Shown here: one piece after another, positions 32,674 to 63,113 of the stretch
Position numbering within the stretch: the first letter of the stretch is position 1
Layout of the letters: every line of letters starts with the position of its first letter
NCBI RefSeq assembly: GCF_963675165.1
Contig: NC_087382.1
Coordinates: 4,193,963 to 4,257,962, forward strand
Origin: Halichondria panicea
Lineage: Eukaryota; Porifera; Demospongiae; Suberitida; Halichondriidae
Length of the DNA: 64,000 nucleotides
Direction: 5' to 3'
Program-made: the position numbers and the translations under genes
The notes under the pieces: model-generated
Told to the model about the DNA's origin: nothing
Database searches by the model: none
What the model saw: only the letters and a program-made list of their open reading frames with translations

Positions 32674-34426
32674 TCATTGATTCAGAGTCTTCCAACAGCA
32701 TATAGACACAAGACTGAAAAAAAAAATGTTTCAGTCACATGCGTGCTTGTCATATTGCACATATAATTTATCAACTCACCAGATAGCTAATACTACGGCA
32801 ACAATGAAAAAGACAACTGCAAGGCCAATGGCTATATTGCGATCTCTGTTATCACATGCGCATGGGCCTGTATATAATATATAGAAACAATAAATAATAG
32901 CACGCCACGGTGTCAGGACGTTAATTGGCTATAAAATTATGTCAGTGACTTTAGTTGATTTGAGATATTGAAACTGTCTATAATTATAATCCAACATGCA
33001 TGCGGACTCTATTAATTTATACCACATGGAGCCCATGCCATGAATGTGCTTTGTTTTTGTATGTGAAGATTGGACAGCTTTGAAAGCAGAAGATTATGTT
33101 GCTCAAGTTGAAGGCTTTGCCCCGAATGTGGGGTGATATGCTCAGCAGGGCTAGATAAGCTTGTATTTCTACTCGCATTTTGATAAAGAAGGCTATGCAC
33201 TCGGTAGTCTCCATGCAAGTGATAATCTGTAATCTGGTTTCTGATTCACCGTTTGCATTATATTTATTCCTTGATTTTACTCAGGTTACTGTTTCTATGC
33301 GCCCTATCGTCCACGTGGCGCAACATACGTATTGTGTAAATATTAATTATTTGCAAAAAATGATACTGGTAATTCAGAAACAAATAATGCAAGAAATTGG
33401 TTGCATGATGAATTCACTTGGAGTGGCCGAATGCCGAGCTGGGGCCTGCAGTTTTAAATTAGAGCTCTAGTATAGTGATTGCCTATAGTACAGTGGCGTA
33501 GCCTGGATTTTTGGAAGAGCAGGGCAACTCAAATCAGTTGAGCAAGACCAGAGCAGGCGCTGGAAAAAAAGTCATTACTCAGTTTTCCTTAGCAATCAGC
33601 ATGCGCATTAGATATGGCCCTGACCACATTTCAATTGCATGACATCATTCTATTATTATAATTATGCATACAGTATAGATTGACAGATCACGGTGATTCA
33701 AGCTAAGTTTAGAGAGTTCATGGGAGCACAAAAGGGGGGGGGAGCTCTAGCCCCGTCAGCCCCCCGATAATTTTTTTATGGCATGCATGAATAGAAAGTA
33801 GTTGGAACTTGACAATACAAAATAAATGTTTCCATGCAAGCGATGCTCTAAATATAGTTATATAAATAAAAGCACTGTAGGCGCCAAAGCTTTCTGGCAA
33901 CGAAATTTGCATCTGCATGCAGAAAAGAGTGGGAATTGATCGATCTATGATTGTACTAAAAAGGATTGCTAAAAACGGCAAAAGTTGAAAGTTTATAATA
34001 TTAATGGCTGCCTCATAAAAAACAGTGTGGCTGTGAAGCTCTTTTCTTACTGTGCATTTAGTGGTGACATTTTTTGACTGGAGGCCATGCCTCTTATTAT
34101 AATGACGCCATTTAACTTATCTGCCTAGTTGGCTGTGGCCCAATCTTCTATTACAATGGAACCTCGCTAATCCGAATAGAGTCAGACCAGACCCCATCCG
34201 AATACATAAAATTTCCGGATTAACGGATGTCATTAAGTGATCATTAACGAAGACACTTGTGTACATGTATTATGAGTATTACTGTGGCCAGAAGGGAAGC
34301 TGTTAGCTAGAATAGTCTTTTATTTCTCCAGTCTTGTGAGCTCTCTTCGTTTTCTTTGCAGTGGCCATTGTATTGAGCAAGGTATTAACAGTTTATTAAT
34401 AAAATTATTGCTGATTCAGCAAAGCA

Positions 34427-34472
<46 letters not shown>

Positions 34473-36223
34473 CCTTTATGGCGAAAAGAGTAGTTAAGGT
34501 AAGTACAAACGGGTAAGTTAGAGTGCGCATGCGCAGTAGTCTATTGATAGCCCCTCCTCTTTTTCAGATTGCGATTTTGTCCAAATTTGCGAGGTTTCGG
34601 ACTAAAGGAGTTCGTCTGGATTAGCGAGGTTCTACTGTATTGCATATAATAGAGAAGCTATTTATTTACTTTAGCTACGAAAGAGAACTGCAGTCATTTT
34701 CGAGCCCCACCCAGTAACCGGATGTCTATGTGATGAGAAATGACTCGTTAGCTAGCTAGAAAATCAACCCTATAACTAGATCTTTACATGTACATCATAA
34801 TAATACAGTTCATTTTGCAAAAACATTCAGAAAAAAGGGTCCGGGTCCACCTCATCTATATATCTCTCACATTCTCTCAGCACGATCAGACAAGGTAACA
34901 GCGTGCCCTTCCAGATAGATCATCATCACCAGCTATAAGGCTACCATGCACTGTACAAGCTAGCTAGCCATAGATAGACGAAACTATCTCACTACTATCC
35001 TTCGCATAATTATTGAAAAAGCGCTTCAATTCGAGTAAAAAACCTGCAGTTATGAGCATGCGCTTAAAATAAAGATACGCTAGCGCTTATAAATAAAGTA
35101 CTAAGCTACGGTAGCACCCTCGCTATAATTATGCTCAGGATACTACAATAATGCCTTTGGGCTTATAATTATATATAGGTCTACCCATGCCATCATTATA
35201 ATTTATAGACACCTCCAAACAGTGTTATATGTTGCAACTGAACTTACTAGGACTAGGAGTCGAAGTTGGGAAAGATGAAGATGGAGATGGAGTTGGGCAA
35301 GATGGATTATCTATAATGCATGTAGAAAATGATGGCTGTTATAATTATATGCATGAGATTACGATTTTAAAACTAAAATGTTGTGCTATAATTATTAACC
35401 AAGTATGAAGAAATAAATTAAAGAAAAATCGGCCTGGAACTGAGGTTAGGGCCAGACAAGAAATGTCAAGGTCAATGGCATGACAACTCACGTGGCATGA
35501 TGAAATCAATCATCAAAGTATTCATTGATACATCCATCATTCGTATACCATTCGTATACTGAGCAGTACATTGAACGTTCAGGCTCGTGTTTCCAGTCAC
35601 ACCGTATATGTGTATATTAGCCTCTAACAGAGTATTCTGAGGAGGTCTGCTAACCAACAACTTAAACTGTGAGAAGGTCTCATTTAGGACACATAAATCA
35701 TTAGGCGATACTATCTTTTTGTGTTCGCACTGTCCACCACCAGGGCAAAAATATACTTGAAGCATATTAGCCGTGTCTGAAGTATTGTGTAATCTACACG
35801 TTGAAGAAACATTTTTCCCAATAAAAATGTCATGCGACCCAGGCTGGGAACAGAGTTGAAACTCTAAAAAAATGATTAAACACATAATTATATAATGAAA
35901 TATACCAGTGCATAAACTGCTTACCCTTTGGGCAGCTACAGCTTGTACTCAAGTTAATGGTATTATTATTCATTTGAAACTCGTCCAGTACCCTCTCACA
36001 CTGCTGAGCACAGATCAGGCCTGATGAGACCTGCATGTCACAACCATGCAATCATAATACCTGCACCTATATACATTGTATTTCTAGATTATGCGATTAC
36101 CTAAATTTATGCAGCATTGACATTCATTCATGTAGAGTGAGTCTAAGATACTACAGTGTTATAGATCTATACGCACACACTTAAGCTTACCAGCAAAAAA
36201 CAGATAATTATTAGATATTGCAT
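32674..36223 (-). CDS. type I membrane protein with cysteine-rich ectodomain and short tail
   Basis: Six exons on the minus strand: 36191..36223, 35925..36030, 35492..35863, 35248..35310, 32780..32867, 32674..32713. All junctions are GT/AG and keep frame, giving 233 residues. Signal peptide MQYLIIICFLL continues over the first junction (phase 0; later ones are phase 1, the last phase 2). The large exon encodes a domain of about 124 residues with cysteines in LCSQ, STCRL, YFCPGGGQCE, DLCVL and VQCTA. A short Ser/Thr/Pro stalk follows, then a membrane segment (IAIGLAVVFFIVAVVLAI) and a tail of about 14 residues without tyrosine. I cannot name the domain; three more genes in the window share it. 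It is head-to-head with the Ig/FN3 gene at 36667. The 2.4-kb intron before the membrane exon is filled with transposons. Exon 6 is the least certain. Confidence 0.72.
33491..34850. mobile_element. hAT-like element interrupted by a second transposon
   Basis: The left end is CAGTGGCGTAGCCTGGATTT. Downstream segments (about 34078-34145 and 34640-34700) match the MITE at 13477-13839, for example GGAGGCCATGCCTCTTA and GAGAAGCTATTT. The right end is not clear. A pogo-like element at 34154-34637 splits it. All of this lies in an intron of the minus-strand gene. Confidence 0.55.
34154..34637. mobile_element. pogo/Tigger-like MITE nested in the hAT-like element
   Basis: Starts CAATGGAACCTCGCTAATCC and ends GGATTAGCGAGGTTCTACTG, with TA on both sides (34152-34153, 34638-34639) as a target duplication. 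CAGTRGAACCTC termini and TA duplication are typical of pogo/Tigger elements. A run of 42 T lies at 34429-34470. Confidence 0.75.
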
Positions 36224-36666
36224 TCTGAACTAACTAAACTGGAGTTCTTTGATTAGGCCAGGCAAAGTAGATTAGTAGTTTCTCGGTTTTTGTAAATTGA
36301 TGAGGCCCAAGGAAGGCTGGACTTAATTAAGTCATTAGGGATTCACTCTATGTCAGGAACGGAAGTTATTTAACCACAACACACCCTCGAATTCTTCACA
36401 CGTATATGTTGTGACAACTTTTTGAGGGGAAGGCTAAAGTGAAGCGGGGGCTGATGAGAAACTACTCTGTAGACTCGCGGTAAACATTTTCAATTGAGGA
36501 CCCCCGCGAGGATTGCATGGCTTTACGTACATGTAGTCTCAAGTCGAGTCATAATCAGTATTGCATCATAGTTCTATGAACCAAAAAGACATAGAAGGAT
36601 CAGAGCTAGCTAGCTTCTATAGCGCGCGCTAGTCATAGAAGATGTTGAGATAGCTCTAGATCCAAG
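36224..36666. promoter_or_regulatory. shared upstream region of a divergent receptor pair
   Basis: The two start codons (36223 minus, 36667 plus) are separated by 443 bases with no other gene. No clear TATA box was seen. The short gap suggests a bidirectional promoter; this is inference from layout. Confidence 0.45.
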
Positions 36667-39447
36667 ATGAACCGATGCTGTACAAAGTTATTCCTCGTAA
36701 TATTTGCCTTAATTAATTCTCCTTGTTCTCTGCAACGGTGTCACTGGTAAGTCCAAAAACTAATATACAAAAACGAGCTTTAATTTCTAGGCTACTGCTT
36801 GATAGATGATCTATATTTTTTTCTATTCCAGCCGGTAGTTTTGTTTCTGTGCCTGAAAATGTGACTGTTTATTCTGGGGAAATGGCAAGACTTACATGTA
36901 AGGTAACTCAGAGTGGACAGAGCGGACTCTACTGGCTGATTACTGAGGAGCGTTTGCTACCAAGTAATCTCCCAGACTTCTATCAAGCAAGTAGATATAT
37001 CTGGAGTCCTGAAGGATTTGATGACCCATACACAACTTCCATAGCTTTGGAGATGATTGGAATATCTGAAACCGATAATACATCAGTGGAGTGTATAGGA
37101 CATTATTCGAATGCAGGATACATTCTCAGTGATAAAGTGTACCTAAGGGTACAAGGTAAAAATAGTTATAAGTACATGTACGTGTATATTTCGAGGTCCT
37201 GGTTAAGCATGTAGATCTACCGCACCCACGAATTTAATATCGTATGCTGCTGCTATTCCGCGAAAGTTTATATCCTTGAAATATACCCGCTATATGGTAT
37301 ATAGACACTAGTTGATAAGATCTATATGGAAAGTACATGGGAAAAGTGCCTCAGAGCAGGTATACTATGGGACTTAGTATACTAGTATTCTGTTGTCAAG
37401 TAATTGTATTGTAGTCAAGCCTCGAGGGCAAGGTTTGCGCGTGTGCACTAGATCTAGACACTGTTCTGTCGGTGTCCATGTGATTTACAAGCCCTCAGCC
37501 ACCCTCGCTATACACTCGGGATATTAAATCAGTGCCCATAGACAAAACAGTGTCTAACTACTATGTATAGGCGGACCATAACAAGTATGTGGAGCTAGAG
37601 CTTTATCTAGAAATGATTACCATGGACAGTGGAGTCATCTTTTAGCTTGTAGAAGTTGGTCTATATAAGTTTGTATCAGCACAATACACGAGAAATCGAG
37701 AGATTCTCTTAAAAATAGGGCTCCGAAAATGGTGTTCGTTTCAGTATTGCTACTGTTATTTTCCGGCAGGCGTTCATTTCCAAGGAGAGCATAACTTTTA
37801 CTATCTGCTGTTTATTTCGTACAAAGTACAAAAAATGATAACCATGCATGTCACTTGTGTGAATTAAAAGAAAAAAACGACATAAGTGTTCACTAAACAA
37901 CCTCTGATATTAGATTTGTTGCTCGTGTCACATTGTAGGAATTCTCAATGCTCCAAGTAATCTGGCAAGCTCTGCGGTAATCAATGACTCAGTGCTGATA
38001 ACCTGGACTCCTCCCTCTACTCTGCCGGGTACTACCATGAGCTTCACAGTCAACGCATCAGTCGAAGACCACTCAGAAACCTTTACTACCTCTCAACACG
38101 ACTTCCTTATCAGCCTATGTGATCTTGGTGTTAGCGGTTGTTACTCCAATTGTGAGCTGAGTGTGTCTGTGAGAAGTATCAACCAAGCTGGTGAAGGAGA
38201 ACCAACATCCATCACTGTTCCTGTCCAACCGTTCTTATGTGATGGAGCTGAACATGGTATAATATGTACATTTATGCAGTGTATTGTCATTGACTTTGTT
38301 CCTCTTAATTGTGCGTGTCTGTGCAGATAGACCAGGACTCCCTACAGACCTTGTAGCCAGTGCTCTGGACGACTCTCTATCTGTGTCTTGGTCACGCCCC
38401 TCCTCCAGTCACCCCATTTCCCACTATAGTGTGGATGTATGGGATACTCAGACAGAGTCCCTAATAGCCAATGGAACTGAAATTACTGATCTGCAGTATA
38501 CACTGGAGTACATGGCTGTGGGCATAGATACATGCAATAGAAGTTATAACGTTGTAATCAGTGTTTGTGGGGTGAATGTTGCTGGTAAAGGCAAGACTGC
38601 AAACACAACTATGGCAATACAACAAAACATGCAGTCGTGTCCTACTACTTCTGGTAATATCTTTGGCTATAATATTGTACATAATTCCCTGAATTGTTTA
38701 TGCCAGATTGTGGTAATCTTGATCTGTTATAGAATTAAGCATTGAGTTTTCTGGTACATACGTATGTATATACAAGGTACTTTGCCCATTAATATGTATA
38801 CTTAAATTCAAATAGTTAATTTTCATTTGTCTTTCTCATACAGTTGTAGAAAGTGTCACAACTCCACAAGTATCTGCCTCAACCCATTCGCCACATCATT
38901 TCCCCCAAGGTTTGTTGTGTCTGTATTATTGGCTGGTTAATATACACAAAACTTAGTGTATGTATTGACTCTTTGTTCTTTGAACTACAGATCTAGTGCC
39001 ACACCTCATGCCAATTGTTGCTGGTGGTGTAACAGCCGTAGTACTACTGATGATTTTGGCAGGTATACTGATAATAATTGTGTATAATTATAGCCTCCTT
39101 GCAATTGTCTCTTACTCAATTTAAACATTCTCCAGTTACTGTTGCAGTATGTATTTGTGTGAAAAGAAGAAACAAGATAGATGGTAAAGTTGCCGGCAAC
39201 ACTGTAATCCTATGAAATGTTTGCTTCCAACTTATTTTTTGCAGATGATTCTAAACGATCATCCTTTGAGACTGGAAAGAATCCATCATACGGATATTCC
39301 CCTCCTCTAACAAAGAATCCATGTTATGAAAAACCGCATCAGTACGAGTCAATTGACCCAGTTTACAGTACCGTAACTGAGGTTAAAGTTCAACCACACC
39401 CAACGGGTGTACCTTCCCAATTATACCCGGCTCATGAGAATGCGTAG
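36667..39447 (+). CDS. Ig-FN3-FN3 transmembrane receptor with tyrosine-motif tail
   Basis: Eight exons: 36667..36746, 36839..37155, 37939..38256, 38327..38653, 38844..38909, 38991..39062, 39136..39183, 39245..39447, total 476 residues, frame kept throughout; most junctions are phase 1, one domain per exon. A signal-peptide exon is followed by an Ig domain (LTCKV, LYWLIT, SVECIGHYS), two FN3 domains (LITWTPP, SVRSINQAGEGEP; SVSWSRP, VCGVNVAGKGKT), a short stalk, a membrane segment (IVAGGVTAVVLLMILA into VTVAVCICV) and the basic stop KRRNK. The tail holds HQYESI and VYSTV three residues apart, plus two further tyrosines. The YxxI/V pair resembles tyrosine signalling motifs, but its spacing is shorter than in an ITAM. 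The exon-2 acceptor at 36838 was chosen because the preceding AG would give a stop. The ligand is unknown. Confidence 0.84.
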
Positions 39448-41725: not shown

Positions 41726-43767
41726 TCACACAATTTCTTCGTAAATGTGCAGTTCGTTATCAGAATTGCATCCATATGCATCATTAACTTTCATTGGTAA
41801 ACTTATGCCGTAGGCTTCATTTTCTCGCAGATTCACATTTTGATGTTCATTTGATCGCTGTCTCTTTTTTACAATCACAAGTATTTTGATGATTGCAACT
41901 GACACTCCTGCATTATGAATGAGACTAAAAATGTTTTGGCGGCATAATAGAAGTACATACCACATATTTGTGCTATTACAGCAGCAACAGGAGCAATCAC
42001 AGTCCACATAATTTCCGAATCTGTATCTGAATATGCATGCATGGTGTAATATATTATGACAGCGTAGTTGACGTTGGATACATACATACCCTGAGTAGTC
42101 CCGGTCGTAGTTTCCGTAGTTGCTTTTCTGGTGAATATATACATATCCTGAGTAGTCCCGGTCGTAGTTTCCGTACTTGTTTCTCTGGTGGATACATACA
42201 TACCCTGAGTATAGTCCCGGTCGTAGTTTCCGTAGTTGTTTCTCTGGTGGATACATACATACCCTGAGTAGTCCCGGTCGTAGTTTCCGTACTTGTTTCT
42301 CTGGTGGATACATACATACCCTGAGTAGTCCCGGTCGTAGTTTCCATACTTGTTTCTCTGGTGGATACATACATATCCTGAGTAGTCCCGGTCGTAGTTT
42401 CCGTAGTTGTTTCTCTGATGGATACATACATATCCTGAGTAGTCCCGGTCGTAGTTTCCGTAGTTGAGGGTTTTGTGCTCGGTCTGGTTGTTTTAATAGT
42501 TGTAGTGCCTAATGGATAAGTGATATTATTATAGTATTCACTGACTGCATTGCTCCATTCATACCTGCATCAGGGGTAGTGGGTATGACTGTACCTGTTC
42601 GGTCTTCAGTCACATGAAATAGAGATTACATTACATATGAAGCAAATGCACACCTGCATCATGCGTGTGCACAACTTGTGTAAAGAATCATGCAGTGAAC
42701 GTTTAGTGCCTCGAAAATAACCAGCTATTATGGTAAGTTACATTATAGAAGTGCAATAAATAGTGCAATATGTCTATATACGAGCTCTTCAACATACCCT
42801 GTTCATCGGTTAATTGAAGAAGAATCAATAAAGTTTGCTGACTATGAATAACCCGGCTACCATCAGATGACATTGTCAGCGCTAAATATTTCACTCGAGT
42901 ATTATTGTTGAACTTGCTTGGATTAGGAATATATATGTTGATCTGTCTATTTGTGATTCGTTCAATCCATATATTTGTCTTATTATCGTACCTACACTGA
43001 TGATAATATAATGAAGGCCTTTCACAATTTGAATCTGAACATAATTGTATATCAACAATGTTAGCGATGTCATTTACGATACAGCTAGCAAATCCCATTT
43101 GTTGAGTTGATCTAATAGTATAGCTACTCTCAGGACAGAGAACGAAATCTGCATGTAAAATAATGTATATAATTATGTAACAGTAACACAATTACTCTAT
43201 ACTATATATAATACATACCACAGAATACTGAGAACAAATGAACACTCTTCTCTCAAATTGGTGTCAACTGTCAACACACCAAAATTAACGAATAAGAAAT
43301 TACCACAATTGCGTCAGCATACCGGGTATATTTCGAGGGTATATGCATGTTTGTGGTTTTCGCGGATTAAGCATGTACCGCAAACATTTATAACTGTGAT
43401 TGAAATATAATATCGCATGCTGCAAAAGGCTGCTATTTCACGAAAATCAAGTCCACGAAAACCTTTCTAAAGGCATTTCCACGAAAATTTATATACCCTC
43501 GAAATATACCCGCTACACGATAACTTATAGGTGTGCAATGTCTGGATATAACAGGAGCAAATCCTCTAAACTATGTATGTACATTGCATGCATGCATGCT
43601 CATGCACACATAAAAAACTCACAATCTTCACAGCCCTCTGTGGTAGAAAAATTATTCCAGCCTTGAAATGGCCCGATTAAGCTATAGTACAACTCTCGTC
43701 TTGAGCGATACAGTAACAAGTTAGAGACTGCATGAAAGAGAAAAACACTCTGACACTGCATCACCAT
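41726..43767 (-). CDS. transmembrane receptor with cysteine-rich domain, repeat stalk and tyrosine tail
   Basis: Minus-strand exons: 43623..43767 (or an alternative signal exon 44069..44113, MAKFYAYILAILSFK), 42798..43148, 42565..42603, a stalk exon from 42508 down to 42263 (or 42320), 41961..42020 and 41726..41907, total about 340 residues. The 117-codon exon encodes the cysteine-rich domain (FVLCPESSY, ASCIVND, LCSDSNCE, HQCRY, INIYIPNP). The stalk is a Thr-rich 19-residue repeat. The membrane segment spans two exons (TVIAPVAAVIAQICG, VSVAIIKILVIV) and is followed by KKRQR. The tail holds ENEAYGISL and ends HIYEEIV. Exon 1 at 44069 cannot be joined to the acceptor at 43727 without a frameshift; starting at 43767 avoids this but gives a poor signal peptide, so the 5' end is uncertain or damaged. 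Confidence 0.62.
42090..42470 (-). repeat. 57-bp coding minisatellite with a splice donor in several units
   Basis: About seven units encode MYVSTRETSTETTTGTTQG-like stalk repeats. Several units contain CAGGGTATGT, a good splice donor (exon ends at 42320, 42263, 42204 or 42090). The unit near 42211 has a two-base insertion that shifts the frame of everything downstream of it. Confidence 0.88.
43318..43522. mobile_element. MITE of the TACCGTATAGCG family in a receptor intron
   Basis: The left part reads ACCGGGTATATTTCGAGGGT, and the right part CTCGAAATATACCCGCTACA is its complement. It lies in the intron between the first and second exons of the receptor gene at 41726-43767. Confidence 0.75.
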
Positions 43768-44442: not shown

Positions 44443-45360
44443 TAGTTCCAACTTGTTTTGCACAAGATTCTAAAACAATTATCCATTGCATGCATGAGAC
44501 TGGAAAGAATCCATCATATACGGAGATCCTCCTCCTCTAACAAAGAATCCATGTTATGAAGAGCTGCCACATTTGTATGAGTCAATTGACCCAGATTACA
44601 TGCTAAGGTTGTATACAAGCACTCAGTTGAGGGGCTCAAAATCCTAATAGTACAGCACTATGCAGTACTGTGTGCATGTGTGTATGCATATGTGCATGCA
44701 GGCTACCGATGGCCCCAGAGATTGAAGACCGATATAGAGGAACCGGGATATAGGGTCAGCTATGGAGATCAGTGGCTGCATGTGCAAGTATGTGTGTGCA
44801 TGTGTATGTGTGTGTGCATAATGTCATAAACAGAAAACTATACATACTTGCAAAGTGCTGGCGCATGTACATAGCTATAATATGACACAGCGAACGAAGC
44901 TATACGTTTTGCAACCACACAACGGTTATGGGGGACACAGTTAAAATTCTATATGCACCTCATGCTCATAATCATTATAGGCACATGTCAGAGGTATTGC
45001 ATGTGATCCCCGTTTCATGAGTATAATAATAATTATAGCATTCGTCATGCTTTCGTATACAAAATTAATATTCACTTTCATTGATATAAGATTGATACAC
45101 CAAAACATTTAGGCAGAATTATAATCGGTATAAAGAGTCATCAAACTTCTCTCCAGGGAATTGCTTCTCCCAACGATAATGTACGGGCATGTATGAATCA
45201 GATTTCCAGGTAAATAATAAACAATCAACAATGGTTTTCTTGCTTATCAGCAATATTCACCGTAAATATGTTCATATAATATAATAAACAGTCAACAGTC
45301 AACAGTCAGTATTGTGCGCACAAACAGTTCTTAGTAATTATGACATAACTAAGATTGATT
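44443..45360 (+). pseudogene. decayed duplicate of the Ig-FN3 receptor tail exon and 3' flank
   Basis: 44470-44600 matches the last exon of the gene at 36667-39447 (GAGACTGGAAAGAATCCATC, ACAAAGAATCCATGTTATGA, GAGTCAATTGACCCAG) with several indels and stops. Further on, 45150-45260 matches 3' flank near 40340-40460 (ATGAATCAGATTTC, TTGCTTATCAGCA). The upstream domains are absent. It indicates an old segmental duplication of a receptor gene plus its flank. Nothing else was recognised in 44114-45791. Confidence 0.8.
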
Positions 45361-45791: not shown

Positions 45792-48033
45792 CTATGCAGT
45801 TCCATGGGCTTCAAGTTCCACTCGACTTTCAAGTACAATTTCTTCATAGATGTGCTGTTCTTCATTGGAACTGCAGCCATATGCATTATTGATTTTCATT
45901 GATAAACGTATGCCATAGGCTTCATTTTCTTCCAGGTCTACATCAGGATCTTGATGAGGAGTTGACCTCCATTGTTGCTTCTTTATTATCAAGAGCACTA
46001 TGATCAATGTAGCTGACGCACCTATACAGATTGAAAGAGATCTGTAACTATTAGCAGTTTTACAGTATAAATATATAAGGCATCATATCTCGCTCGTACC
46101 CAATGTAAAAGCTATTACAGCAGGAGTTGTAACAGCAGCAATCGTAATTATCACGTCTGAATCTGCATGAGTAAATCAGTGTTGCCATAATAATATACAA
46201 TGCAGTGCAGGTGTATATATATATATATATATACCAGATTGTGTATGTCTAGTTGTCACAGATCCACTAGTACTCGGTGCCATGGATTCACTGGTAATCA
46301 GGGTCACAGATCCACTAGTACTCGGTGCCACGGATTCACTGGTAGTCAGGGTCACAGATCCACTAGCACTCGGTGCCACGGATTCACTGGTAGTCAGGGT
46401 CACAGATCCACTAGTACTCGGTGCCACGGATTCACTGGTAGTCAGGGTCACAGATTCACTAGTACTCGGTGCCACGGATTCACTGGTAGTCAGGGTCACA
46501 GATCCACTAGTACTCGGTGCCACGGATTCACTGGTAGTCAGGGTCACAGATCCACTAGTACTCGGTGCCACAGATTCACTGGTAGCCAGGGTCACAGATC
46601 CACTAGTACTCGGTGCCACGGATTCACTGGTAGTCAGGGTCACAGATCCCGGTTCATTATTCCCTATATATATACACGGGTGACTATATATACTGTAATA
46701 TACATAGTACAACTACCTGTCACCAATAATCCGGGATAGAGCAGCTTGTATTTACTCACTATAATTATACTTCTGACTTAGGTCAACCCTATACACAGCT
46801 TCGGTTCCAGGCCAATTTTTCTTGAAAAATCGGGCCGGGGCCGAGGCTAGGTCAACCCAATCTCTACTATAATTATATAAGCATGCAAGAATGCCTAGGA
46901 TTCCAGCCTAGATTAAACGACTTGCGTAAGCATGGTATTGAATTAAGAGCAAAAGAAAATAATAGATACATCACCCTCATTAATTTTTAGTCAGCATGCA
47001 GCTGTAAATATAGGATAACCTTATAATAATTATAGCCTAGACCCATGCATATATATAGCTGGTGGTTTGCACACTTAATTGTACAACTACGTGTAAATTT
47101 CATCATACATAACTATATGGAACTTACCGTATCTGACAATAAAATTAAAACGCTCTAGCTCTTTCATCATTAAAAATGTGGTCCCTGTGTACTATGCATT
47201 GAATCGAAATTTCACAACTATTTATCACATTGTAGTTCTCAATGTACACAGTTACATGTCGGTTAAAGTCTGTCACAGGTCTTACATACACTATATTAAT
47301 GCCTGGAATAGTAGTACTGCTCTGAAAACAACGGCTTAATCCTATGTTGTTAAATATAGCTCCTGGGCCACAACCACAGCCACATTCAGCTGTTCTCACA
47401 GAAACTGCTGCTCTTTCCTCTGCTTGGCATGTTACAAACAGAACATTACTATCGACGCCAATGGCTTGATTCACAACTTCCATCGGAGGGCAAAGTTTCA
47501 AGTCTGTAATAAAGAGCCATGGCAAGTAACCTAAGGAAGAATCAGATGCAATGGCAGTGTAGTAAATTATAAAATTATGGTGAGAAATCTCAGTATATTG
47601 GTAGTGGAGAGGGAAGTACTTATAATTATTAAATATAATTATTATTATAAGCCATAATTACTAGTCAACCAGTCAATAACTGTAACATATGGCCCACTGT
47701 AAGCAACGATTGGCGCAAGAAGATGCATGGATCCCATAAAAATGTAGCCGAACCTCCTGTACTGATATATAAGATAAAACTCACTCTGCTGAGTCCCCTG
47801 CTGACACTGATTTGTAGACTTGTTTATCGCACCAGTAAGACCAATCAGTTCATTTCCATTGCACAACAGCTCCTGTCCATGAACGGTAGAAACGTAAGCT
47901 AGTAGATCTACCTGTAGCCAATAGAACGTATGGTATAAATCTAATCATCAGCACATGATAAGAAAACAAATATACATCAATATAAATTTACTGAAGCAAA
48001 TAGTAGCAGCAGGTCTATTATTAATGTTGCCAT
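45792..48033 (-). CDS. transmembrane receptor, cysteine-rich domain, Ser/Thr repeat stalk, tyrosine tail (one-base frameshift)
   Basis: Minus-strand exons: 47992..48033, 47785..47911, 47128..47503, 46235..46663, 46100..46162, 45792..46021. The signal peptide MATLIIDLLLLFAS is followed by a linker with CNGNEL, then the cysteine-rich domain (LKLCPPM, FVTCQAEE, CGCGCGPG, SRCFQSS, CEISIQC). The stalk is a 16-residue repeat (VTLTTSESVAPSTSGS), in frame over about eight units. A membrane segment (IAAVTTPAVIAFTLG, ASATLIIVLLII) is followed by KKQQW and a tail with ENEAYGIRL and HIYEEIV. It is the closest relative of the gene at 41726-43767. The domain exon is one base too long to stay in frame: a stop follows a run of five A (plus strand 47172-47176) while the next frame stays open to the donor. 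This is either an assembly error, a recent pseudogene, or a truncated secreted product. Confidence 0.65.
46250..46650 (-). repeat. 48-bp coding minisatellite (receptor stalk)
   Basis: About eight units of 48 bases encode SVAPSTSGS and VTLTTSE alternately in the minus strand. The array is a multiple of three and stays in frame through the whole 429-base stalk exon. Units are nearly identical, so length polymorphism is likely. Confidence 0.92.
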
Positions 48034-48100
48034 TAGCTGTATAGAGTTAACAATTATTCTAACTGCAGTAAGCGCAGCGACACCGTTGCACGATATTTGC

Positions 48101-49290
48101 TTTTGATACTCATGATCTTTACCTACTCTACTAAACGCTTACTTCTTCCTGACTCCTGATTTGCTTTTGATGTCATCATCGCTCAAAATCAAAACAAGCA
48201 ACTGGACACCTCCAAAGTGATTGAAATCAAAGCATCTGTAAGGCACTCGAACCGTTCACTTCAGGACCAACAAGCTGAGACAGTTTACGGCCAAAAAACT
48301 GTCTCCACAGTCGAAACGCCTTATTGACCTGGCCAAAGAGAAAGGTGCCTCATCGTGGCTTTCAGTTCTACCTATTGATGACCATGGTTTCTCCCTCCAC
48401 AAGGGCGCATTCAGAGATGCACTCTGTTTTCGCTATGGCTGGCCACTGCCATCGACCCCTACTAAATGCAACTGTGGCTCAGCCTTCTCAGCAAACCATG
48501 CAATGATTTGCCCAAAGGGCGGCTTCCCAACGATAAGGCATAATGAGCTACGTGATCTGACAGCTTCACTTCTCATCAAAGTCTGCCACAATGTTGCCAC
48601 AGAACCCCGACTACAACCACTAAGCGGATAGTCTTTATCCCACCGCTCAGCCATTACCACTGACAATGCCCGTCTTGACATCCGTGCGAGAGGGTTCTGG
48701 TCTGCTGCTCAAGACGCATATTTTGATGTGAGGGTTTTCCACCCGAATGCGCCCAGCAACAGTTCCAGAACCATCAAAGCTGCCTACAAGAAACATGAAG
48801 ACGAGAGAAAAAAACGGGCTTACGGCCAACGTGTCAGAGACATTGAGCAAGGAGTTTTCACCCCCCTAGTCTTCTCAACCACAGGTGGACTGGGACAAGA
48901 GGCCACCACCTTTTACAAAAGATTAGCAGACATGCTCGCCTGGAAAAAAGGAAAAAACTACTCAGTAGTAATCAGCTGGCTAAGATGCAAGCTATCATTC
49001 GCTGCTGTCCGATCATCAATCATGTGCATCCGAGGGACAAGATCATCAACTCATCGACCCCTACGTGACGCGGACATTACTCTCGCAACGGAAGAGGGCC
49101 TGATCCCTCAAATTTAATTAACTGTAACTGTTTCCAATAAATTTATGTACATGTATACATGCTATTATTATAATATTACTACTTTTGATACTCATGATCT
49201 TTACCTACTCTACTAAACGCGTACTTCTTCCTGACTCCTGATTTGCTTTTGATACTCATGATCTTTACCTACTCTACTAACGCGTACTCC
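48101..49290. repeat. 70-bp direct repeats flanking a LINE fragment
   Basis: A block starting TTTTGATACTCATGATCTTT and running through CTACTAAACGC to CCTGATTTGC occurs at 48101-48170, again at 49183-49252, and partly at 49246-49290. The LINE fragment lies between the first and second copy. It could be a long target duplication or an older tandem repeat hit by the insertion. Confidence 0.8.
48299..49117 (+). mobile_element. C-terminal fragment of a LINE with restriction-like endonuclease domain
   Basis: The translation reads WLSVLPIDDHGFSLHKGAFR, then a zinc-knuckle-like CNCG...H...C segment, GGFPTIRHNELRDLTASLL, then ARLDI and YFDVRVFHP, and LVFSTTGGLG near the end. I recognise this as the region after the reverse transcriptase in R2-like, RLE-type elements; ARLD and FDVR would be the PD-(D/E)xK-type catalytic residues. 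A TAG interrupts the frame at about 48629 and the reverse transcriptase itself is absent. An AATAAA follows the last stop. Confidence 0.72.
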
Positions 49291-49294
49291 TGGC

Positions 49295-51740
49295 TACGGT
49301 GGCCCAGAGAGTTCACAAGAGTACGATTGACCTTCGCTAGTGGACAGTACGATTGACCTTCGCTAGTAGAGAGTTGACCATCGCTAGTAGGGAGTTGACC
49401 ATCGCTAGTAGGGAGTTGACCATCGCTAGTAGAGAGTTGACCTTCGCTAGTAGAGAGTTGACCTTCGCTAGTAGAGAGTTGACCTTCGCTAGTGAACAGT
49501 ACGATTGACCTTCGCTAGTGGACAGTACGATTAACCTTCGCTAGTAGAGAGTACAAGTGACCTTCGCTAGTGGACAGTACAACCTTCGCTAGTAGGTAGT
49601 ACGATTAACCTTCGCTAGTAGAGAGTACGATTAACCTTCGCTAGTGGAGAGTTCTTTTTTTCTAGTAAAAGCTCACCTTTTAGCTAAAAACCTTTACCTA
49701 GGTACGTAGGGGGGTGCTGACCTTATATTTGACCTTTGCTACACACAGATGCTGTATTAAAGAGCCATGCATAGCCTGCTTTGGACAGCAGGCATAACAC
49801 TAGCCTATAGTAGGTTACAGTTGAACAGTAAGTTGAGCTTGTTTGTGTGCTGTTGTTTGACATGTTCTAATACAGTCATTCCTACAGGCTACATGTTCTA
49901 CTCTGGACTTCAATCTGGCAAAAGAAAAATAGTCCACTCAACACTGAACAGCCCTAGAGTAGAACATGGAATTATTGTATTATTTAGCTACAACAAATCC
50001 TACATGTACTAGAAACATCAGCACACAAATAAGCAACCTAGCCTCGATCCCAGGCCGAGTTTTCGCTTTTATAACGGTTAGGCGAACAACTAGGCCTGGT
50101 ACTACCGTATAGCGGGTATATTTCGAGGGTATAAATGTTCGCGGTTTTCGCGGATTGAGCCTGTACCGCGAAAATTTATACCCACGAAAATTTATAATAG
50201 TAGGCGTGTTCAGTATTATGGATTCGAGGCTAACAGTGGAGTGGTACAGCTGCATGTTGATGTGCGCATGCGCCAAAAGGCTGGAACTCAGACCACGAAA
50301 ATAAAATCCGCGAAATCCTTTGTAATGGTCCATCCGCGAAAATTTATACCCTCGAAATATACCCGCTATACGGTATATAGTTGTCTGCCATGCGTCAAAT
50401 TTTCATTGTGTTTGTGGTCGGCAAAAATATTTCTAATCGAAATTTGTACACAGAAAATGCACAGAGTGAGTACACAAAAGATGCACATAGAGAGCTGCTT
50501 CACAAGGGCCTGGGGAGTTGCCAGTTGTGCTGCAGCACGATTACAGTGACCCAGGGCAACTTCAGGATGATTGAATGCCTTCAAATTACGTTTCAAAAAT
50601 ATTTAGCAGGCTGCTGGACTTCTCTGATTCTAGGCCCCAACTCGTAATTCTTGAGAAAACGTAGATTCTCTTGATGCCTCTGTCAGTCTGAGCTACCCAG
50701 CAACGCTCGAACGAGCAGGTCATACTCCAGTCCTGTAAGTATAGGACAATAATTACAAAGACGGTTAAACCCTTACCTCAAACTGTCCAGTCTCGTCCGT
50801 TAGTATAGCCAAGCGGAGCACTGTTGGGATAGCTGGATATTAGCCATTGCTCCTGTACAGAGAAATAGACATTCTAAATACGTGTAGATCTATATTAAAT
50901 TTCTCGTATTAAACAGGTTATAGTGTCATTGTCGACGAGCTGATGATGGCAGCACCAAGTTCTCTAGCTCACACTCTTCACTTGATCCACCATATTAATG
51001 ATGAAACTATAGTCTACCTAGATCTTGCCAAACATGAACAAGATTTGATAGCACAGGGCCCACACTGACCTTAACAAGCTTGACAAAGCTTTATACCTCT
51101 TCCCTTGTTGTTCAGTCTTCAGAGTAATGTTTTCTAAGCTTCAGAGAAGAGAGAAGCTTCAGCTAAGAGCCATTCCAATAATGATAAAACGGGAGCTGAC
51201 TTCTAGTACACGATAGTACACGAATATAAATGTCACAAAAGTGAACGAGAATATCCATTAGTCAGAACAGGCCTAGTTGTTCACCTAACCGTTATAAAAG
51301 CGAAAACTCGGCCTGGGATCGAGGCTAATAAGCAACCATGCAGCTTAATTGCTTACTGTTCAACTGTAGTCTACTAGGCTAGTGAGTCACTAGGACATCT
51401 AGTGTTGTGCCTGCTGTCCAAAGCAGGCCAACATGGCTCTTTAATATTTATGTGTGTAGCAAAGGTCAAATATAAGGTCAGCACCCCCCTACGTACATGG
51501 TAAAGGTCTCTAGCTAGAAGGTGAGCTTTTACTAGAACTCTCCACTAGCGAAGGTTAATCGTACTCTCTACTAGCGAAGGTTAATCGTACTGTCCACTAG
51601 CGAAGGTTAATCGTACTGTCCACTAGCGAAGGTCAATCGTACTGTCCACTAGCGACGGTCAACTCTCTACTAGCGAAGGTCAATCGTACTGTCTACTAGC
51701 GAAGGTCAATCGTACTCTGTGAACTCTCTGGGCCACCGTA
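49295..51740. mobile_element. long-TIR non-autonomous transposon with minisatellite ends
   Basis: The element begins TACGGTGGCCCAGAGAGTTC and ends with the complement (GGGCCACCGTA). It is flanked by the 6-base direct repeat CCTGGC (49289-49294, 51741-51746). The inverted ends are several hundred bases long and contain a degenerate tandem repeat of about 20-27 bases built on TTGACCTTCGCTAGT (49320-49650, inverted in 51535-51715). The middle holds inverted copies of the dispersed CGATCCCAGGCC motif (50039-50100, 51265-51330) and a MITE. No transposase was seen. Confidence 0.82.
50103..50375. mobile_element. MITE of the TACCGTATAGCG family nested in the long-TIR element
   Basis: Starts TACCGTATAGCGGGTATATT and ends with the exact complement (CCGCTATACGGTA). 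The inner part pairs around CGCGAAAATTTATACC. Confidence 0.88.
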
Positions 51741-51746
51741 CCTGGC

Positions 51747-53345: not shown

Positions 53346-53349
53346 TTTT

Positions 53350-54521: not shown

Positions 54522-54689
54522 CGTCAGGGAGATGGTCGGGCCACGCCCAACTATAGCTAACCGTTATAAAAGTGAAAACTTGGCCTGGGATCGAGGCTAA
54601 TCCATACATCTGCTTTTATGACTCTTTTGAGCTACATAACCTCTTCACCGGTTGTACGACTGCGGGGTGAATGGCAAACTCGTGGTGCC

Positions 54690-56010: not shown

Positions 56011-59000
56011 CTATAGAGCAATACAAAAACCTCCAATAATTAACAGCCAGTTAATAGGGTAGGTTAAAGATGATGATGTAGAATCGGCAGTAGAATCGGC
56101 AGTAGAATCGGCAGTAGAATCGGCAGTAGATGCACCTATATAATTATAAGAAAAAACAGTACAATGTACATAATTTTATACGTAATTACCGTATATCTTC
56201 TAATTTATCGGACAGCAAAAAATAATTATTTTGGAAATTGTCCGGGTATAATTGGAACAGATTTTTATACAGCATGCGAAGTGTCCGGAATAATTAGAAC
56301 AAGCAAGCAGCTGCATGCGAGCTAGCTAAGTTTAATAGACCAGTGTGCGACTGAATAGTTGCACTAGCTATCTAAAACTAGCTACTCAAAGCTATCTAAC
56401 TGCAGCACTCTAAGTCTTGTCTTACTTGCCGTCTGTGAATGGTGAATGTAACTCAATATTGTCCGGATATTTAGAACAAATGTAATATTAAAGCACTGGA
56501 GTGTCCGTTGTATTAGAACAACGAAAATTGCCCAAAAGAGTGTCCGGGGTAATTAGAAGTGTCCGATAAATTAGAAGATATACGGTATATATAATTACCT
56601 GTGTCATCATCTAGCTCTACATAGATAATAGCAGATGTTGTATCCAAAGGAATTGGAGTATCTCCTGATGATGAAAAATGTTCTTCAATGCATTCAATCA
56701 TAGTTAGGCTTGTACTTAAAATCACGTCTTCGATAAAAATCTCAATTTCTCTTCTAATAGTTGATGTTCTAAAAAAAATATTTGAGTTCGATACTTGGTA
56801 GCAACTATTGTTACTTCGTATACCAATTATTTCGCAACTCTGATTTTGTGCACTAGTCGGAGGACAATACATTGCTGACACAATTCTCCCATTAAAATGC
56901 AGTGGTAGCCTGCAGACACCATAGGCTGACTGGGTTTCATTAAGATGAACACTCGGTTGTAAACAAATGAGGAAATCTGCAGAATTAAAAATTATATACC
57001 GCATAGCACGAAATTTTCAAGGCATTTAAATTTCACCCGGCTTGATTGCTTACCAAAAGTACTTCCAGGCCACGCCTTGCATGTTATATATATATAGCAG
57101 AAAATTGAAGAAATAATTTTTGTAGTTTTGCTAACCCATGAAAACAGCGAAAAATAATCTTTTTATTACCACTGTGCAAATTGTTGATCCTCTTTCATAG
57201 GGTGTTGAAGTCTTTCGAAAATTTCGCACTAATGATTCAGTATAATTATACTGAATTCAGTTTATATGCATGTATAATTATATAAATTCCCCTAATCTGA
57301 GTAAAATACCATTGGTGATGTTGGAGCCATTACAGTTGGGCGTGCTGAAGTTTCTCCACGTTGCATCTATTACTGGACATTCAACACTTTCTGCATTTTT
57401 AAATGCAAGTAGCTGGAACTGAAATTATATGACAAAGCAGTATAAGTGTATGAGTTGAGTGTCACTGTGTATATCATAGATTGTGTGAATGAATGTGTAT
57501 ATACAATCATAGATATAAGAAGGGAGAGTATGGTGAGCCTTTTGTTTCAAAATGGCGATACAAAATACCATGTGTTGGTCCCAAAAATCAACTCGATTTG
57601 TTTTATCAACTATCGACTTTATCTGGTAGGGATCGACTCGATGTGTTATATCAACTCCATTTCATCTGGTAAGGATCGACTCAATGTGTTTTATCAACTC
57701 GATTTCTTCTGGTGAGAGGATCGACTCGATTCCAGGCCGCTGGGGGAAAAGGCGAGTTTCGAGGGCGGCTTGATGTCGAGGCTATCTATGGCTGTACTCT
57801 TGCAACAAAGGCGCTAGGCTCAGACAAGGCACTGAGACTCTTGAGGCCACAGGCAGGCCTACAGCAGGTCAGAGTAGCTGACCTTCCAGGCACGCCTGCA
57901 GAAGGTCACAGCAGCTTACTTGTGCTGGATCACAGTAAATTAAATCACTAAATGCTTGTCTACTTGACTCTTGAGTTCATGACACATACCAAGTAGCTGC
58001 TGTGTGATCTCAGGCTCAGAAGGTCCCCATCTGAGCTACTCTGAGCTGCTGTAGGCATGCCTGTGGCCTCAAGAGTCTCAGTGCCTTGTCTGAGCCTAGC
58101 GCCTTCGTTGCACACTAGAGTACAGCGACTACAGCCATATCAGGCCGCCCTCGAAACTCGCCTTTTCCCCCATGGCCAGCGACCTGGAATCGAGTCGATC
58201 CTTACCAGAAGCAGTCGCTAAATCGAGTTGATAAAACACATCGAGTCGATCCCTACCAGATGAAGTCAATAAAATAGAGTTGATAAAACACATCGAGTCG
58301 ATCCCTACCAGATGAAGTCGATAAAATCGAGTTGATAAAACACATCGAGTCGATTTATCCTTCCAGTTTGGGACACCAACACATGGTATTTTGTATCGCC
58401 ATTTTGAAACAAAAGGCTCACCATAGGAGAGGGATGGGAAACGGAGCACGTGCGCACAATCACTTCTGTGTAATGCCAAAAGTTGATCCGCGTTTCGCCT
58501 TTAGACACCCCGCCAACCCAGTGGGAAATGTTATTACTATCATTCACAGCTCCCCACTGGGACTCTTAGTCCTGTGCTGAGCATCCACGCTCACCGAAAA
58601 CTTTCAAAGGCAGTTTTTTTAGTGTTGTATTATCGTTTTGGCTCTATCTAGTGGCTTTGTGCACCTTCTACAAGGAGAGGCTGTGACTACAGCCCAAAAT
58701 ATTAATGATTCCCTCTTTCTTAAGTAGCTGGGCATTGTATGCAAGTAAAATCAAAGCCACTTGGCTTTAGGTTGGTAAGTAATGTTCATTTTTGTCTTAG
58801 TAAGCTGGCTTTGACAAGCAGACTTTTTGTGTACCCATTTTTAGACAGTTATATCGAATGTAGGTAAATGTCTCTTTGTAATTCATTGATAGTTGGTTCA
58901 TCGTATCGGCACAATAATTTACGACAGAACTTTGCTACATTTCCATAATTCTCTATCATGTCTGTGACTGTACAGGAATACTCAACGGTACAGACAGAGC

Positions 59001-60145: not shown

Positions 60146-60363
60146 CGTGCCACAGTTTTGTACTGAGATCTGCTGTATAGATAGCCATGCATAAGATCTA
60201 GGTCTCTGATGTGAGGCGGATATATGGTCTCATGAATGATTTTGACTTCATCGGAATGTCATTGAATTTCGGCCCTCCTGACCATGCAGTAGGGCGTGGA
60301 TCTATAATTGAACATGCGCAAACAACCCTTCTTCTCAAGAAGCTAGTTTGAATTGTTGAAAAG
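60146..60363. promoter_or_regulatory. shared upstream region of the second divergent receptor pair
   Basis: Only 218 bases separate the start codons of the genes at 60145 (minus) and 60364 (plus). The layout matches that at 36224-36666. No TATA box was identified. Confidence 0.5.
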
Positions 60364-61457
60364 ATGAGCAAGTTTTCTCTACTTTGCTTCATGTTAATCT
60401 ACTTGTCAATGATTGACCTTACTGCAGCTGAACATGAGTGTAAATAAATTCCCAAGTTCTGAATGATATGCTAAATAATTATAACAGCAATGTTACAGTT
60501 ACATAATTATTATATAGTCTAGTTGAAGGCTGACTAGTGTGGAAATCTAGATCTGTAGTATAGATGATCATTCTAGCTATATAGACCTATTGAGGCTACG
60601 TAATCTATTAATTGTGCCCATGTATAGGTTATGTGACTCAAAAACCCACTGTCAATATGGATTTTCAAAACCTGCAGCAAGCATCCATATCTATAAAAAT
60701 GATTTGTACCAACCTTATAAACTTGCTATGGATAGTAGATGACAAAGATACAATATCTACGACAGAATATCTACATGCTGTGGTCAGCATACATGTAGAG
60801 GAAAGTCTTCAAGGCGAGAACGCAATTGAAAGCAAGCTCATGTTCATACCAGCTCCAAATGAAAGACACACTATATACTTTAAAGCACTATACGAGGCAG
60901 ACAATAATGAACGGAGAATATACCGCAGTGAGTCCGTCACTGTTAAACTCTTACAAAGTAAGTGTATAAGTATCATCAAAATAATGTACTAACTCTCTTC
61001 CAATAGATAAGTTGAGTGCTCCAAGATTTACATTTTATGACGATTCCATCACGATATCGTTTGCCAGTCAATCAAGAAATATGCACCTAGAAATTGAGGC
61101 CACTGACAAAACTCGTACTCAGGGTGATTTTGACTGGATATGCAAACCAAAAAAATCTAAAATGCCGGTTAACCTGAGCAACACAACTAAACAATCTGGG
61201 AGGCATGTCCTTTTCCTTGACTTCTGTGAGCCTAACGGGACGTTTTCTCTAATGCATAGTACAGGTGTTGACGTCGAACTCCCGTCAGTGATAACATATC
61301 TGTCTAGTGCTGCTCAACACCGTAAGTTATAGCCTGCATAATTATTATATATAACTGACTATAATATCTTTATGATTATATAGGTACGCTGCTCACACAT
61401 TGGTTGCTACAGGTGATGGTACTAGTCCTTCACATTGCCTATTTCGAATTCTGGTAA
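60364..61457 (+). CDS. secreted or membrane-anchored Ig-like protein, no tail
   Basis: Four exons: 60364..60439, 60628..60957, 61007..61321, 61384..61457; all junctions phase 1, 264 residues. The signal peptide is MSKFSLLCFMLIYLSM. Exon 2 encodes an Ig-like domain related to that of the neighbouring gene at 61595-63113: LLWIVDDKDTIS aligns with VFWIVDGMDSIS, and RHTIYFKALY with NHTIQCVVYG. The second Ig cysteine is thus replaced. Exon 3 (APRFTFYDDSITISF, DWICKP, DFCEPNG) may be a diverged FN3 domain, but I cannot assign it firmly. The C-terminus (THWLLQVMVLVLHIAYFEFW) is hydrophobic with nothing after it, suggesting a GPI signal or a tailless membrane anchor. It is head-to-head with the cysteine-rich gene at 56011-60145 and tail-to-tail with its own paralogue. 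Confidence 0.7.
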
Positions 61458-61594
61458 TAAGGGCTGACGGATAATTATAATGACAATTATAAATAAACAT
61501 GCATGCATCAGAACGAATGGACGTATATATAATTATACGTGATCTATAGATCTATAGCTAATTAATTTTTGTTTTCAGCTTATTTTTATTCGAG

Positions 61595-63113
61595 TTATTT
61601 GATGGTTTCATAAATGTGTTGCGTGCCAGGCAACGAAGCATAGGCTTCATTTTTCACTATTAGTTGTACTTCTCCATAAGCACTGTTCTTGCAGGTTGGA
61701 ATGCACTCCGGGGGGTCTGTTTTGATAATCATGCATGATCACTGACAGACATAGCAAAGTTATAATATTATATCTAATGCATGCATGCATACATGTATAC
61801 TGATTTTCACATAACTCACGCTCAACCGTCTGCTGTTTGCTTTGATATTGTCTCCACTTCCAAACCATAATGGAAATTATCATCAAAATAGTAGCTGTCA
61901 GGCATGCATGCACAATAAAAAAAATTATTGCAGCTTACATTACATGTATGTACTACAACGTACATTGAGGCAACATGCCACAATTATTCACTTACTCACT
62001 ATTGCAGTTACAGGGGCACAAATGTAAGCCACAAGACCTGCACGCGTGTATGTGTATATAATTTGTCATGTATGCATGCATGCATGTGCATGATGCATAG
62101 CCTTTTTAATTCGCAAGTTTCTGACATTATACCTAAATCATAATCTCTTGTTGTATCAATCGTAGAAGCAATGGGCACTGTGAAAGTGAAACGAAGGCTG
62201 TTTTGAGTTGAATTGATTGCAGAGGTGAATTTTACAACAGTGTTTCTTAAAGTTGTACTTGGTGTAATAACACAACCAGCTATGAGGACAGTCATGTTTG
62301 AGAAATTTCCAGCACCAGCAGGATTGTCAGCACGAACGCCAAATTCAACTTCCATGTCTTCACAACCACTATAGTTGTACTTGTATTCATAGAGAGGTTG
62401 GTGTATTAAAATGAGTTCAAAGCTACTATTGATACGAACTGCAACACTGTAAAGAGATACAGTGACCAGACTAGGGGGTGGATCCCACATAAGATTGATG
62501 ATGTGAATATTGCGAAATATCGTCGTATTCACATGAAAGTTAGGAGGAGAACTCAGTGCACCTATATAATTATGCACAGCAAAAATATAGAAAACAGTGA
62601 CTCAGAATCAACTCGTACATTTATACATGTCATAATTATAATTATCGAGTTACCTTGTACTGGTATTGTTATTGGGTCACTCCGCTCGATCATTCGATCA
62701 GGTCCATAAACCACACATTGAATGGTGTGGTTAGACTCAGAAATTGCAGTAAATGACAAACGACTATTCAGTACACTAGGTGATACTTGAAATAATTCAT
62801 TTTGAGCCATTAATTGGGTGTCTGCCAAACTAATTGAATCCATGCCATCCACAATCCAAAAAACAGTGATACTGCCAGTGCAAAGAGAACAGTTTAAGGA
62901 TATTCTTTGTCCAGAAAATCCCACTACAGGCTCAGGGGGGGATAAAAGACCTGCATTGGTGCATGCATGATCACATCATATTAATATAACTACAGTTATA
63001 CGTGCATGCAGACGCCAGCAGCTTATAATGATACACCTACATGCTTCCATCACAATGAACTTGTTAAAGTATTGTAGAAGAAAAAGTATGGTCAGGTACC
63101 AGCACTCTTCCAT
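61595..63113 (-). CDS. Ig-FN3 transmembrane receptor with tyrosine-motif tail
   Basis: Six minus-strand exons: 63041..63113, 62654..62950, 62133..62561, 61996..62037, 61820..61894, 61595..61716; all junctions phase 1, 345 residues. The signal peptide region is WYLTILFLLQYF. The Ig domain has ISLNCSLC, VFWIVDGMD and HTIQCVVYG. The FN3 domain has INLMWDPPP and FGVRADNPAGAGNFSN, followed by a Ser/Thr stalk. The membrane segment spans two exons (LVAYICAPVTAIV, TILMIISIMVWKW). The tail holds three YxxI/L/V motifs: AYGEV, AYASL and HIYETI at the end. It is the signalling-tail counterpart of the tailless paralogue at 60364-61457, which is convergent and 137 bases away. The first donor (after 63041) was set by frame. 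Confidence 0.75.

Follow-up and report, generated by a model that had tools for sequence, protein, structure and literature searches.

Gene content of the locus

The region under study is a stretch of 64,000 nucleotides from the demosponge Halichondria panicea (hereafter the window), which holds a cluster of receptor-like genes, several of them ending in a cytoplasmic tail with the tyrosine motif H-x-Y-E-x-I. A search of the sponge's own genome placed the window at C6:4193963-4257962. The 82 kb beyond it were also read, giving a total of 146 kb. Genes are named after their position in kb, and the term window scale denotes the same numbering carried past the end of the window.

Seven genes had been rebuilt exon by exon in an earlier note on this DNA. 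All of them exist as exon sets, namely g35 (-), g39 (+), g41 (-), g45 (-), g57 (-), g60 (+) and g61 (-) (Table 1). Full support was obtained for g61, which corresponds to RefSeq LOC135336931 isoform X1, HIYETI tail included. The tail type of g39 is backed by RefSeq LOC135337289, its paralogue at 78 kb, located just outside the window. The exon joins proposed in the note were right in outline, apart from a frame break in g45, a faulty donor in g39 and signal exons that are missing or uncertain. No signal exon was found for g41, g45 and g57, and both the gene start (~36223-35926) and the signal exon of g35 are uncertain. Not all genes of the window need be working ones. Most exons with delimitable boundaries show GT-AG splice sites and phase 1 at both ends, and such symmetric exons are of the kind open to shuffling.

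Table 1. Genes, tyrosine tails and tail remnant of the window (GPI, glycosylphosphatidylinositol; TM, transmembrane)
Feature	Position	Strand	Description
g35	32776..36223	-	V-like exon 35863-35492; Pro/Ser-rich stalk ~35310-35248; last exon ~32867-32776, behind a 2.4-kb intron, ending in GLAVVFFIVAVVLAIW before the stop, GPI-signal-like
g39	36667..39447	+	signal exon from 36667; Ig 36832-37155; FN3 37939-38256; FN3 38327-38653; stalk 38844-38909; TM 38991-39062; exon 39136-39183; tail 39245-39447
HQYESI	39337..39354	+	g39 tail, NPSY-x8-NPCY-x3-HQYESI
g41	41726..43148	-	V-like exon 43148-42798; Thr-rich stalk ~42508-42090; TM exon ~42020-41961; tail exon 41907-41726
HIYEEI	41732..41749	-	g41 tail, NEAY-x8-NDAY-x8-HIYEEI
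Tail remnant	44519..44599	+	HLYESI at 44570; no recognised upstream exons; duplicate near 97.7 kb (window scale)
g45	45792..47530	-	V-like exon from 47530; stalk 46649-46255; TM ~46160-46102; tail exon 46021-45792
HIYEEI	45837..45854	-	g45 tail, NEAY-x8-NNAY-x8-HIYEEI
g57	56011..56976	-	V-like exon 56976-56599; (STAD)n exon 56135-56011 ending in SSSLTYPINWLLIIGGFCIAL before the stop, GPI-signal-like
g60	60364..61457	+	signal exon 60364-60439; Ig-like 60628-60957; second domain 61007-61321; last exon 61384-61457 ending in HWLLQVMVLVLHIAYFEFW before the stop, GPI-signal-like, with one acidic residue
g61	61595..63113	-	exon 63113-63041; Ig-like 62950-62654; FN3-like 62561-62133; TM 62037-61996 and 61894-61820; tail 61716-61595
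HIYETI	61601..61618	-	g61 tail, NSAY-x8-NEAY-x7-HIYETI

Tandem repeats were detected in the stalks of three genes, with units of 57 bp at 42075-42466 (g41), 48 bp at 46255-46649 (g45) and 12 bp at 56078-56130 (g57). Since the stalks are made of such repeats, their length may vary between individuals. In g41, GTATGT, which could act as a splice donor, is found within repeat units, and a shift of frame results from one spacing of 59 bp in place of 57.

Extent and duplication of the cluster

The locus is a real, coherent receptor cluster of the sponge, with a layout like that of clustered immunoglobulin (Ig) receptors elsewhere. It does not stop at the window end. On the exon map, relatives of the family continue up to ~126 kb (window scale), that is ~60 kb past the window end. 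Five ectodomain queries (g61 FN3-like, g39 FN3s, g41 V-like, g57 V-like and g60 Ig-like) were compared with the whole genome and matched at this locus only, in a search of limited sensitivity in which the ectodomains of g35, g45 and g83 were not included.

Duplication is evident at several scales. The head-to-head pair g35/g39 is present again at 74.4/76-78 kb (window scale), and the block at 41.7-47.6 kb is duplicated at about 95-100.6 kb, with the tail broken in one copy. The genes g83 and g103 are 97% identical in the Ig exon and 96% in the first FN3 exon, but only 66% in the second FN3 exon and 55% in the tail. This uneven identity across exons points to shuffling of cluster exons. At g118, a V-like exon, FN3 exons and a HIYEEI tail are apparently joined, judging from their order on the chromosome only. 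At the DNA level, this 118-kb copy matches g45 and g83 in the tail exon only, while the matches of g45 to g83 and of g83 to g99 extend past it. Beyond the window, a segmental duplication of ~99% identity was observed (88292-92151 and 106329-110459, window scale), which is perhaps very recent or else an effect of the assembly.

Protein fragments encoded on other contigs are 83-84% identical to the nearest cluster locus; such fragments (P0003, P0004, P0006 and P0007) may be alleles or come from other species. As the FN3-like exon of g61 has a single match in this genome, P0003 and P0004 probably derive from another genome or haplotype.

The tyrosine tails are homologous

The four H-x-Y-E-x-I tails of the earlier note were all recovered at their positions, and a fifth occurrence, in the gene remnant at 44570 (+), had been missed. 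The raw count is not significant. Over all six frames of the window the pattern H.YE.[IVL] matched 5 times; 60 order-2 Markov sequences gave 1.67 matches on average and never more than 6. Lying within the simulated range, the count taken alone was rejected as evidence. The longer register N..Y.{7,8}N..Y.{5,11}H.YE.[IV] occurred 5 times in the 146 kb and never in 60 simulations of equal length; this pattern was written after the tails had been seen, and the HxYESI type, with its shorter last gap, falls outside it.

Comparisons with the motif masked gave support for homology. When the g61 tail was aligned with the six HIYEEI tails, 0, 0, 3, 3 and 17 of 2000 shuffles reached the observed score, and 113 did so for the 99-kb copy. 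None of 2000 shuffles reached the score of g61 against the 78-kb tail. Masked in the same way, the g39 and 78-kb tails score poorly in direct comparison with HIYEEI tails, so that the link between the HQYESI and HIYEEI types is an indirect one, via the HIYETI tail of g61. In an alignment of eight tails, seven columns are invariant (Y, N, Y, H, Y, E, I); the 99-kb copy, which has a cysteine in place of the first tyrosine, was left out.

Homology searches with two tails returned 4 and 7 places, making 11 with the queries included, all of them within 79 kb at C6 4233206-4312061. H-x-Y-E-x-I is retained at 10 of these 11 places and lost in the 95-kb copy. The tail exon is under constraint at the level of its codons: the ratio of non-synonymous to synonymous substitution rates (dN/dS) ranges from 0.23 to 0.76 over the 15 pairs formed by six HIYEEI copies, and HIYEEIV is identical in all six, which had been picked by the motif. 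From their sequences, the tails descend from one ancestral tail, roughly NxxY-x8-NxxY-x(3-8)-HxYExI. The tails being homologous, the four motif occurrences are not independent, and four separate or convergent origins were rejected. Neither a single tail nor the tail profile retrieved any solved structure up to E 10.

Candidate signalling motifs and partners

The shared motif had been described as close to, without being, the immunoreceptor tyrosine-based inhibitory or activation motif (ITIM, ITAM), and this mostly held among nine tails. The ITIM consensus [ILVS]-x-Y-x-x-[ILV] is never found at the H-x-Y-E-x-I site and appears elsewhere in two tails (SAYGEV in g61, ISYPTL in g83). ITAM spacing, Y-x-x-[LI]-x6-12-Y-x-x-[LI], is seen in g61 (YASL-x6-YETI) and fails in the other eight; with an acidic residue at -3, no tail complies. 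The hemITAM, an acidic pair directly ahead of Y-x-x-[LI], is absent from all nine. On these grounds, assignment of the HIYEEI tail to any of the three motifs was rejected.

Of the 11 places recovered by the tail homology searches, the queries among them, 10 have the sequence Y-E-x-I, as do 9/9 tails chosen partly by the motif. For the Src SH2 domain, pYEEI is reported as the optimal ligand sequence (PMC7337045). By sequence match, HIYEEI holds Y-E-E-I exactly, and both HxYESI and HIYETI retain the glutamate at +1 and the isoleucine at +3 of this ligand. The genome of H. panicea encodes Src-family kinases (E 3e-159 to Src), the SH2 domain alone being closest to that of Fyn-related kinase. It also encodes SH2 domains of Syk type (E 2e-38) and SHP-2 type (E 5e-50), each compared over the SH2 domain only. 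The Src-family SH2 of the sponge keeps V-K-H-Y at what we take to be the positions of Lys betaD3 and Tyr betaD5. In the Src SH2 domain these two residues contact pY+1 and pY+3 (PMC7337045), and Syk-related proteins have been published from sponges (PMC9486129). The suggestion of a lineage-specific SH2-docking signal is thus plausible from the match of the tails to the preferred Src SH2 ligand and from the SH2 domains encoded.

The two upstream tyrosines led to a different explanation, in which the genes encode adhesion or endocytic receptors with a double NPxY/NxxY tail as in integrin beta. Such a tail would bind talin or PTB-type proteins and couple Ig-mediated contact to the cytoskeleton, the last tyrosine being secondary. 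NxxY-x7/8-NxxY is present in 7/9 tails, and exact NPxY occurs twice in both HxYESI-type tails examined. In integrins the spacing from tyrosine to tyrosine is 12. Two NPxY/F motifs are reported in two cnidarian integrin beta tails (PMC2397394), and a review ties the Ig superfamily of sponges primarily to adhesion and recognition (PMC11999971). The Pfam profile Integrin_b_cyt (PF08725) matched the 78-kb tail up to the profile end (E 0.0053, 16.9 bits), but below the cut-off of 23.4, and the other four of five tails scanned gave no match. NPxY is moreover absent from the HIYEEI and HIYETI tails, and it is H-x-Y-E-x-I that is kept at nearly all homologous places. The explanation is compatible with the receptor reading set out below; as an account of the locus it is unlikely.

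Ectodomains, untailed genes and selection

Two ectodomain types, cysteine-rich on the one hand and Ig with or without FN3 on the other, had been distinguished. Both were seen, yet both may be Ig, and they appear together in the 118-kb gene. A low-confidence structural model allows the cysteine-rich domain to be read as an Ig domain of V type; a link between V-like and Ig domains at sequence level was not significant. The Ig domain of g39 matched four Pfam Ig families at E 0.0027-0.005 and that of the 78-kb protein four at E 0.0057-0.047, all below the curated cut-offs. The fn3 profile exceeded its cut-off of 25 bits in the two FN3 exons of g39 (30.3 and 31.1 bits), in the 78-kb protein (44.2) and in the draft of g83 (26.7), and did not reach it in g61 or g60. 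Matches to ACT_9, TMEM154 and HCMV_UL124 were below cut-off and treated as chance. The Ig exon of g60 is related to that of g61 by tblastn. This exon of g60 (60628-60957) was observed to lack both cysteines of the usual Ig pair.

The absence of a tyrosine tail from g35, g57 and g60 was borne out. In all four non-tailed genes examined, the duplicate g74 included, a hydrophobic stretch lies directly at the stop codon, with no basic cytoplasmic residues; the duplicate of g35, at 74.4 kb (window scale), ends in VICIVIW. As the hydrophobic stretch ends at the stop codon, g35, g57 and g60 are probably GPI-anchored. The weakest candidate signal is that of g60, with a mean hydropathy of 1.57 and one acidic residue.

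The mixture of tailed and tailless relatives had been likened to paired receptors. The mixture itself is confirmed, whereas near-identical ectodomains with opposite tails were not found: g83 and g103, with near-identical heads, bear the same kind of tail (HIYEEI). This speaks against true paired activating and inhibitory immune receptors, following ITAM/ITIM logic, at a locus of allorecognition or symbiont recognition. Tailed and untailed neighbours, the g35/g39 pair duplicated as a unit, the ITAM spacing and single ITIM of g61, the Syk-type and SHP-2-type SH2 domains, and the ectodomain variants on other contigs would all fit such receptors. The loci of Hydractinia and Botryllus are likewise reported to join Ig-type receptors to ITIM or hemITAM tails, with gene pairs in Botryllus (PMC12065747). 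Most sponge tails, however, fail all three consensus patterns, and no ectodomain exon pair shows the rapid change expressed by dN/dS above 1. Positive selection on ectodomain exons was rejected, as no pair of 15 exceeded 1; one of them, an Ig exon pair with 3 non-synonymous and 0 synonymous changes, has an undefined ratio. No result of the analysis spoke for a division into activating and inhibitory members, for high variability or for allorecognition. Paired receptors of this kind are quite unlikely here.

A proposed receptor family and its weighing

The explanation favoured here, and held to be rather probable, is a lineage-specific family of Ig-superfamily cell-surface receptors at a single locus of H. 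panicea, in which members with a shared tail stand beside probable GPI-anchored partners or decoys. The family would have expanded by duplication in tandem, with shuffling of exons and loss of genes. Of the seven genes in the window, four would be type I membrane receptors, exposed at the cell surface, that inherited the same tail with its three tyrosines at nearly constant spacing (NxxY, NxxY, HxYExI). The tailless genes g35, g57 and g60 would encode GPI-anchored partners or decoys. The Ig head is proposed to bind a ligand on a microbe or a neighbouring cell. A Src-family kinase could then phosphorylate the last tyrosine and dock via its SH2 domain on pYE(E/S/T)I, while the two NxxY sites may recruit adaptors with phosphotyrosine-binding or PTB domains. 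Syk could be engaged by the g61 tail, which has ITAM spacing. Beside the tailed members, those anchored by GPI might serve as co-receptors or competitors.

Several observations weigh against this proposal. No strong in-phase donor was found behind the signal exon of g39, and the V-like exon of g45 contains, close to its end, one additional base that is absent from 3/3 relatives. Broken or partial copies exist at 44.5, 95 and 97.7 kb. No annotated proteins were found for g39, g41, g45 and g83 themselves (g35, g57 and g60 were not searched for), nor any annotated protein with a HIYEEI tail, none of 17 candidates scoring even at an E value of 10. When HIYEEI tails were compared with those of g39 and the 78-kb gene under masking of the motif, the score was reached by over 40 of 2000 shuffles in 11 of 12 cases. 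The HIYEEI tails have a single Y-x-x-[ILV], at a shared tyrosine. None of 18 exon pairs (15 ectodomain, 3 tail) showed dN/dS above 1, and the GPI prediction draws on hydrophobicity only.

The faults of g45 and g39, the motif lost at 95 kb, the remnants at 44.5 and 97.7 kb and the want of a HIYEEI protein among annotated proteins would also agree with a largely decaying, weakly expressed duplication cluster, the shared motif being a relic of common descent. Such decay is very unlikely in view of the low dN/dS of the tail exons and of HIYEEIV, identical in all motif-bearing copies. RefSeq proteins exist for two tailed members, and the DNA of the 118-kb copy matches that of g45 and g83 over the tail exon only, though the g45/g83 and g83/g99 matches run further.

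A broader version of the receptor-family proposal would make the locus a recognition complex of the sponge. Here a fast-turning Ig locus with tailed receptors and GPI-anchored partners, some in duplicated pairs, would sense self, non-self or symbionts through the NxxY-NxxY-HxYExI tail feeding into Src and Syk. This is advanced as a tentative idea, with only a modest chance of being right. If it is true, sponges would join cnidarians, tunicates and vertebrates in having the logic of clustered Ig receptors with phosphotyrosine tails, whether by descent or through convergence. Allorecognition is a possible function.

Relation to known systems

According to a review of 2025, how invertebrates achieve allorecognition is a complete mystery; it states that the candidate proteins are not conserved among sponges, cnidarians and ascidians, and that the cnidarian, Botryllus and mammalian systems come together in ITIM/ITAM-type signalling (PMC12065747). 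A study of the H. panicea immune repertoire names putative cytokine receptors with Ig and FN3 domains, and the terms ITIM and ITAM are not used in its main text (PMC8242945). In a grafting study of Amphimedon, the words immunoglobulin, receptor, tyrosine, Syk and Src are absent from the main text (PMC5450542). No description of such a sponge locus was found in the titles and abstract beginnings of the open-access papers listed. Clustered Ig-type receptors with a conserved three-tyrosine tail, probable GPI-anchored partners and matching SH2 domains represent concrete candidates for asking whether sponges share this logic.

The mammalian CEACAM family is a fast-changing Ig family with ITIM- or ITAM-tailed and GPI-anchored members, gene conversion of the binding domain, and gene birth and death (PMC2832619). 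Its mixture of tyrosine-tailed and GPI-anchored relatives is alike (PMC2832619), but its tail motif is another, FN3 domains and stalks built of repeats are seen in some of the sponge genes, and the likeness is one of layout. The fester family of Botryllus and its co-receptors are alike in their adjacent gene pairs, Ig domains, Y-x-x-I/L/V core in one partner and gene content varying by pairs (PMC12065747). The Botryllus co-receptors, however, combine Ig with sushi domains, whereas the sponge pair would join a predicted GPI-anchored and a tailed member. Compared with Alr of the Hydractinia allorecognition complex (PMC11999971, PMC12065747), the sponge tails mostly fail ITIM and ITAM, FN3 domains are present, and the V-set reading comes from a low-confidence model. 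Integrin beta tails (PF08725) share the two NPxY motifs with the 39- and 78-kb tails, and differ in that the profile match is below cut-off in one sponge tail and absent from the other four scanned, and that the sponge ectodomains are Ig/FN3-like.

Other features of the window

A mobile-element-like stretch lies within the cluster at 48242-51718, with overlapping open reading frames at 48242-49117 (+). Further along, long arrays of 21/26-bp repeats occur in inverted orientation at 49318-49652 and 51537-51718. Just upstream of the cluster, repeated coding segments resembling what we take to be the U-box family were detected at 31217-31262, 32358-32403 and 32443-32488. A sequence of 49-53 bp (CTAACCGTTATAAAAGCGAAAACTCGGCCTGGGATCGAGGCTA) is scattered in both orientations at 41371, 50040, 51275, 54547 and 63675, and is perhaps part of a small transposon.

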